Origin: Erysipelotrichaceae bacterium
GTDB taxonomy: Bacteria > Bacillota_I > Bacilli_A > Erysipelotrichales > Erysipelotrichaceae
Direction of reading: 5' to 3'
NCBI GenBank assembly: GCA_030525525.1
Contig: JAUNEN010000005.1
Location: 25,459 to 80,231 of the forward strand
DNA: 54,773 bases
Numbering within the stretch: the stretch's first letter is position 1; each line of letters opens with the position of its first letter. Both the position numbers and the translations under genes were made by a program. This document shows positions 16,056-20,580 of the stretch, piece after piece. Below the pieces are notes generated by a model. That model had not been told where the DNA came from, ran no database searches, and was given only the letters and a program-made list of their open reading frames with translations.

Positions 16056-16076
16056 AGCATGAACAGGGAGGGAATT

Positions 16077-16970
16077 ATGAAAAATATTACTAAAGTACTC
16101 GCATGCGGAATCCTTGCACTGGGCCTGGCAGCCTGCGGTGCAAAACAGGAGTCAGAGTCTGAAACTCCTGCTGAGACAGCCGGATGCAATCCGAACGGAT
16201 ACCAGATCACACCGCTTGAAGCGGCTCAGCTGCCTTTAAGCCTGCCGGATCTTGATGCCGGAGTGATCAACGGCAACTACGCACTTGAATCGGGTCTCAA
16301 TACATCAAACCCGGCAGTTTCGATTGAAGAGTTCAATGCAGAAACAAGTGTTCTGAGAACAAACTATGTCGCAGTCAGGGAAGGAACCGAAGATTCTCTG
16401 AAGATCAAAGCACTGGTCGCCGCACTCACTTCCGGCGAAGTCAATGACTATATCAGCAGCACCTACAAGGGAAGCGTCATTCCGTCATTCATCGACGAAA
16501 ACGGAAAAGAAGTCGCATCTTCCTCAATCCCTGAAGCGGATGGCGACAATGTGATCTCGGTCGGCGCTACTGCCGTTCCCCATGCAGAGATCCTGAAAGA
16601 TGTTGTCAAAGGTCTGCTTGAAAAGCATGGCTGGGAGCTTGATGTTGTTGAATATACAGATTATGTACAGCCCAATACAGCTCTTGAAGCAGGCGATCTC
16701 GATGCCAACTATTTCCAGACACTCGGCTATATGAACAATGAGAATGCATCGAGAGGTCTTCATCTGAAGGCTGCCGTCGGTGTTCATATCGAACCGATGG
16801 GAATCTATTCCGAAAAGGTCACTTCACTGTCAGATCTGAAACCCGGCGCAAGCATCGGTGTTCCCAATGATACCGATAACTACGGCCGTGCCATTCAGCT
16901 GCTCAACGATCTCGGGCTTCTGAAAGACGCACCGCTTGATCCTGAAAAGATCAAAGAAATCAACGGCTGA
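16077..16970 (+). CDS. metQ: Methionine ABC transporter binding lipoprotein, circularly permuted MetQ/NlpA
   Basis: Binds methionine outside the membrane and delivers it to MetNI. The signal peptide ends in LGLAAC (lipid-modified Cys20). The order of the domain is swapped. Residues about 43-138 (LEAAQLPLSLPDLDAGVING, NYALESGL, YKGSVIPSF) correspond to the C-terminal part of ordinary MetQ. Residues about 158-283 (ISVGATAVPHAEI, TDYVQPNTALEAGDLDANYF, HIEPMGIYS, GVPNDTDNYGRAIQLL) correspond to the normal N-terminal part. A hydrophilic linker (about 139-157) joins the old C- and N-termini. Total length (297) equals one full domain, nothing missing. ATG 16077 follows GGGAGGG; an in-frame ATG at 16059 lacks such a site. 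Confidence 0.92.
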   Translation: MKNITKVLACGILALGLAACGAKQESESETPAETAGCNPNGYQITPLEAAQLPLSLPDLDAGVINGNYALESGLNTSNPAVSIEEFNAETSVLRTNYVAVREGTEDSLKIKALVAALTSGEVNDYISSTYKGSVIPSFIDENGKEVASSSIPEADGDNVISVGATAVPHAEILKDVVKGLLEKHGWELDVVEYTDYVQPNTALEAGDLDANYFQTLGYMNNENASRGLHLKAAVGVHIEPMGIYSEKVTSLSDLKPGASIGVPNDTDNYGRAIQLLNDLGLLKDAPLDPEKIKEING

Positions 16971-16988: not shown

Positions 16989-17022
16989 AGATGCAGCAGT
17001 GTTTATAAAACCTGCTGCATCT
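16989..17022 (+). other. Strong intercistronic hairpin between metQ and the acyltransferase gene
   Basis: AGATGCAGCAG (16989-16999) pairs perfectly with CTGCTGCATCT (17012-17022). Inside, GTTT and AAAC pair around a 3-nt loop with a single bulged T, giving about 15 bp. No T-run follows (next bases GATTGTGAGG), so it is more likely an mRNA processing or stability hairpin or a weak terminator, favouring metQ over the downstream genes. Confidence 0.7.
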
Positions 17023-17040
17023 GATTGTGAGGGGGTCACG

Positions 17041-18933
17041 ATGAGTACAAAAAGGGAAGGTACTTATATCAGCGCTCTGAGCGGCCTCAAGGCACTTGCG
17101 GCTTTGATGGTTGTTTTTTATCATCTGCGGTTTCCGTTTGCACAGGGCGGACTTCTCGGTGTGACGGTTTTCTTTGTGATTTCCGGCTTTACGATTGCAA
17201 GAAGTCTTCTGAAGGAAGCCGAACAGAAAAATTCGGTTGATTTCGGAAATTTCTGGTTAAGGAGAATCAAAAGGATTCTGCCCGGTCTGATTGTTCTGAT
17301 TTCGGTTACTGTCGTTTTGAATGCGATCTTCAGCAGAGTTCTTTTTACAAAGGAGTGCCGTGATATTGTTTCCGTTCTGACCGGTACCAACAACTGGTGG
17401 CAGATTTTCAACAATGTTTCCTATTTTGAAAATGCCGGTGCTCCTTCACCTTTAACGCATACATGGTCGCTGGCGATTGAGATCCAGTTTTATCTTGTCA
17501 TCTCATTGATGGCTGTTCTGACTGCACGCTCTCAAAGCCGCAGAAAAATCCTCGGGATTGCATGTTCGGCGATCAGTATTGTCTCAATGGCGCTGATGGT
17601 CATCCTGTTTGATCCTTCCAAAGATCCCAGCCGTGTCTATTACGGAACAGATACAAGAATCTTTTCTTTAATGGGCGGTGCCCTGATTGCCATATATGAA
17701 GACAGAATCAGAAAACTGTTTGCTCAGCCCTTACCTGCAGAAGGGGCCGGATGGCTCAGTCTTTCAGCACTTGGCTTTATGATGGTCACGATCAGCGGCT
17801 ATGATGCCTTTATGTACAGGGGCGGACAGATCATAGCGAGCGGTTTATGCTGCGTGCTTGTGATGTCTTTGCTCAATCAGAAGACTTTGATTTCAAAGCT
17901 GCTGTCGCTTTCACCTTTGACATGGTGCGGCACATACAGCTACGGGATTTACCTCTGGCATTATCCGCTTATGCTGTTAATTATGAATGGCGAAAAAGCA
18001 GGCCTTCTGAAGTCGCTTTGTGTCATTGTGCTGAGTGTCATCATGTCACTTCTGTCAGATCTTCTGTTTGAAAGACCTGTGAACAAAGGCAGCTATGCAA
18101 AAGCACTGAATGCAATAAGAACGGTTCCGAAAACTGAAAAGGGAAAGCGCCGGAAGAAAGCAGCTTCTGCATTCTTGATGCGCTCGGCTTTGATGAATGC
18201 TGTACTGATCCTTTCCGCAGGTTTATGCATTGCGCTTGTCCCGCGGCAAAGTGCAGTTGCCAATATTGATGAGCTGGAAAAGCAGGCGGAAAAGGCATCT
18301 GAAATGACAGCTCAGAAAATCAAAGAACGCGAAGAAGCCGCCGCATCAACTCCCGTAACAGAGCCTTCCGGGACTGAAGAACCTGTGAGCAGTGCTGAGC
18401 CCGTCAAAGAGAAAACCGATGAAGAAATCCTGAATGAAATCGATCTGCTTTTAATCGGTGATTCGGTAGCGCTCGGCGCATCGGAAGCGTTCTATGAAGT
18501 TTTCCCTAACAGCATCTGCGACGCTGCTGTCAGCCGTTATACGACAGAGAGCTTTACGATTTATGACATCTGGCGCTATGAGCACGGCTGGAACGGATAC
18601 GGCGTAATCTTTGCTCTCGGTGCAAACGGCATGCTGTATGATTCGCTGCCGACATTAAGAGAGATGATCACACCGGAAAGACCTTTCTTCCTGTTAACGG
18701 CAAGAGCGCCTCATACCGAGTGGGGAGACATCAACAACGAAGAGATGCATAAATTTGCATCCGAACATGAAAACACATACATCATCGACTGGTATGCATA
18801 CAGCGAAGGTCATCCGGAATACTTCATTGAAGACGGAACGCATCTGACGCCTGAAGGCACAAAGGCATATGCCGAATGCATCAGACAGGCTGTTCTTGAA
18901 GTTTACAGAGCCCGTGAAAAGGAGAATGCTTAA
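17041..18933 (+). CDS. OatA-type acyltransferase with SGNH domain
   Basis: Predicted O-acetyltransferase of cell-wall sugars. The N-terminal acyltransferase-3 membrane domain (about residues 1-400) begins ISALSGLKALAALMVVFYHL with the conserved histidine, followed by FFVISGFTIARSLL, RRIKRILPGL and THTWSLAIEIQFYL. A charged Glu/Lys/Ala linker leads to an extracellular SGNH esterase-like domain (about 465-630) with LLIGDSVALGASEAF (block I Ser) and DGTHLTPEG (Asp/His pair). Its 630 residues fit OatA. ATG 17041 has GAGGGGG 5 nt upstream; the frame is open to 16999 but that part is the hairpin. It lies between metQ and metN, an unusual position. Confidence 0.88.
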   Translation: MSTKREGTYISALSGLKALAALMVVFYHLRFPFAQGGLLGVTVFFVISGFTIARSLLKEAEQKNSVDFGNFWLRRIKRILPGLIVLISVTVVLNAIFSRVLFTKECRDIVSVLTGTNNWWQIFNNVSYFENAGAPSPLTHTWSLAIEIQFYLVISLMAVLTARSQSRRKILGIACSAISIVSMALMVILFDPSKDPSRVYYGTDTRIFSLMGGALIAIYEDRIRKLFAQPLPAEGAGWLSLSALGFMMVTISGYDAFMYRGGQIIASGLCCVLVMSLLNQKTLISKLLSLSPLTWCGTYSYGIYLWHYPLMLLIMNGEKAGLLKSLCVIVLSVIMSLLSDLLFERPVNKGSYAKALNAIRTVPKTEKGKRRKKAASAFLMRSALMNAVLILSAGLCIALVPRQSAVANIDELEKQAEKASEMTAQKIKEREEAAASTPVTEPSGTEEPVSSAEPVKEKTDEEILNEIDLLLIGDSVALGASEAFYEVFPNSICDAAVSRYTTESFTIYDIWRYEHGWNGYGVIFALGANGMLYDSLPTLREMITPERPFFLLTARAPHTEWGDINNEEMHKFASEHENTYIIDWYAYSEGHPEYFIEDGTHLTPEGTKAYAECIRQAVLEVYRAREKENA

Positions 18934-18977: not shown

Positions 18978-19943
18978 ATGATTATACTGAATGAAGTTGT
19001 CAAAAACTTCGGTGATCTGAAAGTTCTCAAAGGAATTTCGATCACAATTGAAGATCACGAAATATACGGGATTATCGGCCAGAGCGGCGCCGGCAAATCG
19101 ACCCTGCTCAGATGCATCAACGGCCTGGAATCCTATCAGTCGGGCACCATTACCGTAAACGGGGAAACGGTCGATCTGAATGACAGGAAAAAGCTCAGAC
19201 TGCTGCAGAAGGAAATGGGAATGATCTTCCAGAATTTCAATCTGCTCAACAGACTTGATGTCTATGACAATGTCGCTTTGCCGATGAAATTCTGGGGCTT
19301 AAAGACAAAGACACCGGAAGCGCATCAGAAGATCATGGATCTTCTCGATCTTGTCGGTCTCAAAGACAAGGTACATGCCCGCCCAGGCGAACTTTCCGGC
19401 GGTCAGAAACAGAGAGTCGCAATTGCCCGTGCGCTTGTTCTTGATCCGAAGATCCTTTTATGCGATGAGGCAACCAGTGCACTTGATCCGGGAATCACCC
19501 GTGAAATCCTGGCACTGCTGCAGAAGATCAACCGGGAGATGGGAATCACGATCATCGTTGTCACCCATCAGATGGAAGTGGTCAAGCAGATCTGCGAAAA
19601 GGTGGCGTTCATCAAAGACGGCAGCGTGATCGCCGAAGGCAAACCGGAAGATCTGTTTGTGCGTCCTTCAAGCGAAGTCAAGGCATTCCTGCAGGAGGAA
19701 AGCGATCATCTTCCTGAAGACGGCGTCAATATTCAGCTCTTCTTTACCGAAGAAAGCTCGGATGATCCGGTCATTACAATGATGGCAAGGGAACTCGGCA
19801 TCGATTTCTCGATCTGCTGGGGAAAGCTAGAAGATTTCCGTTCGAATGTTTACGGCAGTCTGATCATCAACATCAGAAAAGAAGATCAGGAAAGGGTGAT
19901 TTCCTACCTTTCCGAACGTCATGTTATTTCGGAGGTGCTCTGA
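18978..19943 (+). CDS. metN: Methionine ABC transporter ATP-binding protein MetN
   Basis: ATPase of the MetNIQ importer. It has Walker A GQSGAGKSTLLR, the Q-loop MGMIFQNFNLL, signature LSGGQKQRVAIARAL, Walker B ILLCDEATSALD and the H-loop VTHQ. The C-terminal NIL (ACT-like) domain that senses methionine in this family spans about residues 245-321 (VNIQLFFTEESSDDP, LIINIRKED). It has 321 residues, slightly short of the usual 340. AAGAGGA precedes the ATG. The stop is one base before the metI start, so the two are coupled. Confidence 0.95.
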   Translation: MIILNEVVKNFGDLKVLKGISITIEDHEIYGIIGQSGAGKSTLLRCINGLESYQSGTITVNGETVDLNDRKKLRLLQKEMGMIFQNFNLLNRLDVYDNVALPMKFWGLKTKTPEAHQKIMDLLDLVGLKDKVHARPGELSGGQKQRVAIARALVLDPKILLCDEATSALDPGITREILALLQKINREMGITIIVVTHQMEVVKQICEKVAFIKDGSVIAEGKPEDLFVRPSSEVKAFLQEESDHLPEDGVNIQLFFTEESSDDPVITMMARELGIDFSICWGKLEDFRSNVYGSLIINIRKEDQERVISYLSERHVISEVL

Positions 19944-19944
19944 T

Positions 19945-20580
19945 ATGTGGGAAACAATACTGAATGCGTCGGTGCAGACACTGACGATGGTGTTCTGGTC
20001 AACATTGATTTCAGTCATTCTCGGATTCATTCCGGCAGTGATCATGACACTGACGGCACCGGATGGATTAAGACCGAACAAACCTGTCTATGAAACGCTC
20101 AGCCTGATTGTCAATGTATTCCGTTCCTTTCCGTTCATCATTCTGATGATTATCATGATTCCTTTTACAAGAATGCTGATCGGCAAGGCCATCGGTACAG
20201 CCGCTGCGATTGTGCCTCTGACTGCTTCGGCAATTCCATATATTGCCCGCGTGTTTGAGACAAGCCTCAGAGAAACCGATCCCGGTGTCATTGAAGCGGC
20301 AAGAAGCTTCGGTGCAAGCGACTGGCAGATCATCTTCCGTGTCTATGTCAAGGAATCCATTCCCCGCATGGTCAACGGCATCATTCTTCTGATTATTTCA
20401 TTAATCGGCTATTCGGCAATGGCCGGAACGATGGGCGGCGGCGGCATCGGCGATGTCGCGGTCAGATACGGCTATCAGGGATACAAGCTGTCCTATCTTG
20501 TTGTCTGCTCAATCGTACTGATTGTCTTTGTACAGGCCGTACAGATGATCGGCAACTGGCTGTTCAGAAAACTGTCTTGA
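19945..20580 (+). CDS. metI: Methionine ABC transporter permease MetI
   Basis: Membrane subunit of MetNIQ, five membrane segments predicted from hydrophobicity. It shows FRSFPFIILMIIMIPFTRML, the coupling-helix (EAA) motif VIEAARSFGASDWQII, and GGGGIGDVAVRYGYQ, typical of MetI. It has 211 residues, normal. ATG 19945 lies one base after the metN stop with GGAGG 9 nt upstream. A clear terminator follows, ending the metQ-oatA-like-metN-metI unit. Confidence 0.95.
   Translation: MWETILNASVQTLTMVFWSTLISVILGFIPAVIMTLTAPDGLRPNKPVYETLSLIVNVFRSFPFIILMIIMIPFTRMLIGKAIGTAAAIVPLTASAIPYIARVFETSLRETDPGVIEAARSFGASDWQIIFRVYVKESIPRMVNGIILLIISLIGYSAMAGTMGGGGIGDVAVRYGYQGYKLSYLVVCSIVLIVFVQAVQMIGNWLFRKLS

Follow-up and report, generated by a model that had tools for sequence, protein, structure and literature searches.

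Natural circular permutation of a binding lipoprotein has been described in Treponema pallidum, where TpMglB-2 (Tp0684) is a circularly permuted glucose-binding lipoprotein with a proposed 'Type Ic / Cluster Bc' assignment, and its authors also speculate on an adaptation to tethering (PMC4990184). Biosensors make use of periplasmic binding proteins with artificial permutations or domain insertions (PMC6335823), and lipidated MetQ was found to be needed for interaction with the transporter MetNI (PMC8416018). No description of a permuted MetQ was found in the open-access literature, which accords with the earlier note on this DNA, whose author knew of none. To our knowledge, clear natural circular permutants with unpermuted sisters at ~60-64% identity in the same bacterial family are rare.

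The gene analyzed here lies in a window of 54,773 nucleotides (the whole stretch of DNA studied) from a gut bacterium of the Erysipelotrichaceae. As the earlier note had read it, a single intact frame of 297 codons with an LAAC lipobox stands at exactly the coordinates given below, and in the encoded protein no Pfam family other than PF03180 (NlpA/MetQ) exceeds its cut-off; the match falls into two stretches (223 bits, E 3e-66). With a probability of roughly 0.9, the gene encodes a working circular permutant of MetQ that serves MetNI with a shifted tether point; this type of permutation is named CP-A. No ribosome-binding site is evident for an in-frame ATG further upstream, at 16059, and the ATG at 16077 is directly preceded by GGGAGG, which is Shine-Dalgarno-like. 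The gene is built as follows:

16077..16970, forward strand: permuted metQ gene, 297 codons plus TGA, with PF03180 in two swapped stretches
16077..16136, forward strand: putative lipoprotein signal peptide and lipobox LAAC (codons 17-20), assigned from the sequence, with M1 and C20 the same in all 23 orthologues
16188..16490, forward strand: old C-terminal segment, now first (residues 38-138; PF03180 positions ~140-236; E. coli MetQ ~172-268)
16491..16547, forward strand: joining stretch that connects the old termini (residues 139-157)
16548..16925, forward strand: old N-terminal segment, now second (residues 158-283; PF03180 positions 1-123; E. coli MetQ ~31-156)
16926..16967, forward strand: new C-terminal tail DAPLDPEKIKEING, made of native residues on one side of the opened loop

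The swapped segment order is real and far beyond chance. A profile search of the genome placed PF03180 positions 140-236 upstream of positions 1-123 within one frame and without stops, and in a phmmer search against solved structures the two halves matched separately and in swapped order (4ib2, 4k3f, 4qhq and others). In Smith-Waterman alignment with L087, the closest normal MetQ and the alignment reference, the native order scored 429 over 142 residues, and rotation in silico raised the score to 763 with 158/248 residues identical, compared with 53 for the best of 100 shuffles. Rotation also raised the score against E. coli MetQ, the sequence of which was verified against 4yah, from 232 to 334. 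Profile order and rotation scores thus bear out the reversed order that had been proposed, and the rotated alignment, a halves-swapped comparison of the kind the earlier note had suggested, agrees with permutation.

The junctions were compared with normal MetQs. The distance from VI.SF to VGAT is 32-33 residues in 23/23 CP-A sequences. Within the joining stretch, the first ~8 of 19 residues resemble the C-terminal tail of normal MetQs (FIDENGKAIN) and the final few resemble the normal mature N-terminus ([A/G]DKTIKVGAT); in normal MetQs the old C-terminal tail reads VITSFIDENGKAIN, and in CP-A it leads via the joining stretch into DKTIKVGAT. This stretch, initially taken for a 19-residue linker, does join the old termini, but only ~8-10 of its residues are new, the rest being remnants of the old C-tail and of the old mature N-terminus; the assignment is based on its near-constant length in 23 CP-A sequences and on comparison with normal MetQ tails. 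At the new ends, the native loop was opened once, at E. coli MetQ residues ~157-171, with the loss of ~3-4 residues. The cut region of the unpermuted sister L087 is FLNGTDNETVLNGSKELNPHGYVITPIEAA, in which the loop reads LNGTDNETVLNG-SKE-LNPHGYVITPIEAA, and NPNG..EAAQ and DPEKIKEING are its two sides; an example of CP-A has the C-terminus LLNGAPTDPEKITEING and the start C...NSVNPHGYEITPIEAA. These end traces, which the earlier note had regarded as a mark of duplication, are the native sides of the loop without overlap, and a duplicated overlap or partial second copy, sought at both CP-A ends, does not remain. The tether from Cys to fold spans 12-25 residues in CP-A versus 14-24 in normal relatives.

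The CP-A order was found at full length in 23 genomes across three genus groups. The same genus contributes 17 of its 70 genomes, with the other 16 proteins showing 62-85% identity to the window protein, and six further genomes belong to two other genera of the family. Outside the family, CP-A was found neither among the order's other genomes nor among 392 genomes from the phylum. A second PF03180 gene was sought in all 23 CP-A genomes and none was found, so that the permuted gene is the sole MetQ-family gene in each. In addition, dN/dS ranged from 0.085 to 0.163 among the tested CP-A pairs, indicating that the protein is under purifying selection. An artefact of assembly or binning, or two partial genes taken for one, might be suspected in a draft genome of 212 contigs, yet the permuted order appears as one stop-free frame in 23 genomes, including Erysipelotrichaceae bacterium NK3D112, a public record without a MAG label, and both the near-constant joining stretch and the selected codons speak against such an error, the probability of which is negligible. 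Misassembly and a pair of separate genes are ruled out by the 22 orthologues from other genomes, and this survey of relatives, also suggested beforehand, agrees with permutation.

The surroundings of the gene and the residues it retains bear on its function. The relevant features are:

16269..16271, forward strand: Asn65, equivalent of E. coli MetQ Asn202 (VIN), invariant in 23 CP-A sequences
16362..16364, forward strand: Asn96, equivalent of E. coli MetQ Asn229, the conserved methionine-binding Asn, invariant in 23 CP-A sequences
16887..16889, forward strand: Arg271, equivalent of E. coli MetQ Arg144 (NDPTNLGR), invariant in 23 CP-A sequences
18978..19943, forward strand: metN, methionine ABC transporter ATPase with a C-terminal NIL domain
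19921..20580, forward strand: metI, permease, the start of which may be ATG 19945

The best NCBIfam match of the window MetI is the methionine permease model, at a score below that model's cut-off. Both metN and metI adjoin nearly every permuted locus examined with enough flank, and in L136 metI only is present up to the contig end. T-box leaders precede CP-A operons in L140, L141 and L151, normal metQ operons in L154 and L156, and in L132 an operon of the type named CP-B2 below. The specifier-loop region of four aligned leaders reads GAACAUGGUC, in which AUG is the apparent specifier codon. In the window itself, the Rfam search found no T-box or other Rfam leader before metQ. Altogether, the operon, the NIL domain, the conserved residues and the T-boxes of relatives lend support to a predicted role in methionine import.

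Members of PF03180 can bind ligands other than methionine, and a functional permuted protein with such a ligand is conceivable, as FQH of E. coli MetQ is replaced by FQT in the window protein. However, FQT is common to permuted and unpermuted MetQs of the genus alike (e.g., L084, P0001) and was therefore not caused by permutation. The invariant equivalents of N229, N202 and R144, the NIL domain of MetN, and the leaders of relatives with AUG at the apparent specifier likewise argue against another ligand, which is considered improbable. Methionine is thus retained as the most likely substrate.

Several further observations concern the architecture of these operons. An OafA/SucT-like acyltransferase gene (PF01757; window 16999-18933) separates metQ from metN; a gene of this kind has the same position in G054 (L150), and the other CP-A operons examined are arranged metQ-metN-metI without it. 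A SAM riboswitch (RF00162) at L140:8393-8480 closely follows the T-box/metQ-metN-metI operon on its downstream side. Fusions of the MetI permease with MetQ, in single frames of 506-520 codons beside metN, occur in other families of the class (L129:2102-3619 in G329 and L130:1786-3345 in G556). A 520-codon frame at L131:2633-4192 (G046), beside metN and metI and reaching the contig end, carries an apparent amino-acid-type binding protein domain ahead of a normal MetQ domain.

Permutation of MetQ extends beyond CP-A. In other genomes, a family profile scan found PF03180 split and reversed elsewhere, with positions 99-236 followed by 1-98. This second cut point, named CP-B, occurs in 25 genomes, with a mature start near IxIGIPDDATN or ITIAIPNDTTN and an end near YSKKxxSLDELKEAAGKK or YGGKQTSLDAI. 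CP-B1 comprises 9 genomes from three genera, with the order metQ-metN-metI in the 4 loci examined, and CP-B2 comprises 16 genomes from three families of the class, two of them other than Erysipelotrichaceae (G549, G522), with the order metN-metI-metQ in the loci examined. CP-B2 and a normal metQ occur together in four genomes, G002, G008, G017 and G040 (L143-L146), in which each CP-B2 copy has its own metN-metI.

Descent was examined with order-normalised trees, in which matched residues are put in profile columns regardless of chain order. In the careful tree (101 rows, LG+C20), CP-A forms one clade (100/99), as do CP-B1 (100/99) and CP-B2 (100/98), and the starred branches force three changes. 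A single origin of CP-B1 and CP-B2 was rejected (delta lnL 94, p-AU 0.0027). In the quick tree (131 rows), CP-A is nested within normal MetQs of the same family, and its sister is formed by normal genes of genus group g52 together with L086/L087 (support 89). The MetN and MetI proteins of CP-A operons are nested in the corresponding region of the transporter tree; there the CP-A partners do not form one clade, and one clade is not rejected (p-AU 0.187). Thus, permutation of MetQ has occurred at least three times, with the permuted genes falling into three distinct clades among normal MetQs. The tree alone does not separate gain from loss of permutation, and three independent gains are the simplest reading because the alternative needs exact reversals to the normal order. 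This recurrence is the most surprising part of the finding and was absent from the earlier note.

With regard to origin, CP-A descended from a normal metQ standing before metN and metI. A short linker now connects the old termini, and a surface loop (E. coli MetQ ~157 to ~171) has been cut, which leaves the signal peptide and the lipid-bearing Cys ahead of the old C-terminal segment. Tandem duplication of metQ followed by trimming is a plausible route to this arrangement. The same permutant could have arisen by fission and fusion or by cut-and-paste, both of which have been described as routes to circular permutation (PMC3320104); this alternative concerns the route only, and it gains from the absence of a duplicated overlap or partial second copy at the ends. 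Against it, a tandem pair of normal metQ genes stands upstream of metN-metI in the same genus (L142:7686-8684 and L142:9079-9996 in G002), and a second genus of the family has a neighbouring normal pair (L047, L062), so that the intermediate needed for the duplication route does exist. Moreover, none of the examined loci contained a split metQ. Fission and fusion or cut-and-paste is therefore judged the less likely route, although it keeps a sizeable minority share, and duplication with trimming is preferred.

Structure prediction with AlphaFold2 yielded a pLDDT of 77 and a pTM of 0.73 for the CP-A window protein, and 86 and 0.79, respectively, for a CP-B2 protein. Residues 36-187 of the CP-B2 model, its first half, superposed on residues 128-273 of E. 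coli MetQ, which form the second half of the normal protein (144 residues, 2.3 A, Z 13.5). Foldseek and VIA-align are both sequential aligners; in Foldseek the CP-A model, which is of modest quality, gave only partial matches to MetQ (4k3f, 136 columns, 47% identity), as would be expected of a permutant and also of a poor model. In VIA-align its best rows were other binding proteins, several of them end to end and most at 4-10 A rmsd, and the CP-B2 model too aligns end to end with other binding proteins. Such end-to-end matches may reflect the pseudo-symmetry of the lobes, with the segment swap exchanging lobe roles, and this exchange may be why the fold tolerates permutation.

The protein would most likely fold as a two-lobed MetQ, bind methionine and pass it to MetNI as usual. 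The general topology of proteins of this kind would place both cut points in the second lobe, so that the tether would have moved there from the first. Relative to MetNI, as gauged by alignment to E. coli MetQ, the membrane would thus be reached from a different point, probably on lobe 2 instead of lobe 1. The membrane leash of this protein appears to have shifted repeatedly during evolution. It is a tentative and rather doubtful extension that a pseudo-twofold symmetry of the lobes tolerates the exchange and that permutation represents selected, convergent re-anchoring instead of a neutral accident. The reading of the gene as a permuted MetQ, advanced in the earlier note, is upheld by nested phylogeny, operon, purifying selection and binding residues, and the duplication route and the tether shift that accompanied it stand on weaker ground.

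MetQ hence provides three independent permutants within one protein family, and those present as the sole copy must carry the MetQ function. The matched natural pairs make it possible to test how genes become permuted and whether tether position affects docking on an ABC transporter. In practical terms, permuted MetQs score below the NCBI whole-protein MetQ cut-offs and may serve as a warning: CP-A reaches 121.6 versus 374 bits for NF008285 and 115.8 versus 228.85 for TIGR00363, a shortfall to which the split match contributes and in which the models may also be narrow.

Among known systems, the closest is the ordinary MetQ of MetNI. CP-A is homologous to MetQ/NlpA (PF03180; E. coli MetQ, 4yah; N. 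meningitidis lipo-MetQ, 7mbz) over the whole fold, with both halves matching the family (profile 1-123 and 140-236), common descent with normal MetQ in the order-normalised tree, and ~60-64% identity to the most similar normal MetQs in its bacterial family. Like ordinary MetQ, it has a lipobox (LAAC, with Cys20 in 23 orthologues as the predicted lipidation site), metN with its NIL domain and metI as neighbours, as in a MetNI-MetQ importer, and the key pocket residues, including the Asn229 equivalent. Unlike ordinary MetQ, its segments are reversed and its termini and lipid anchor lie at another loop. As the reversed halves break the collinear full-length match to PF03180, CP-A is classed as a permuted derivative of the family instead of an ordinary member. 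Engineered biosensor proteins show that binding-protein folds accept new termini (PMC6335823); unlike CP-A, none of them is the lipoprotein of a native transporter. The permutation itself is most closely paralleled by TpMglB-2, likewise a natural circularly permuted, lipid-tethered ABC substrate-binding protein, but one from the sugar-binding Type I / Cluster B family, which is unrelated to MetQ, and with a permuted part that is poorly conserved and possibly derived from another gene (PMC4990184). CP-A lacks the homology to the sugar-binding Type I family that membership of Cluster Bc implies, and, unlike in TpMglB-2, both of its parts show clear homology to normal sister genes, and permutation has recurred.
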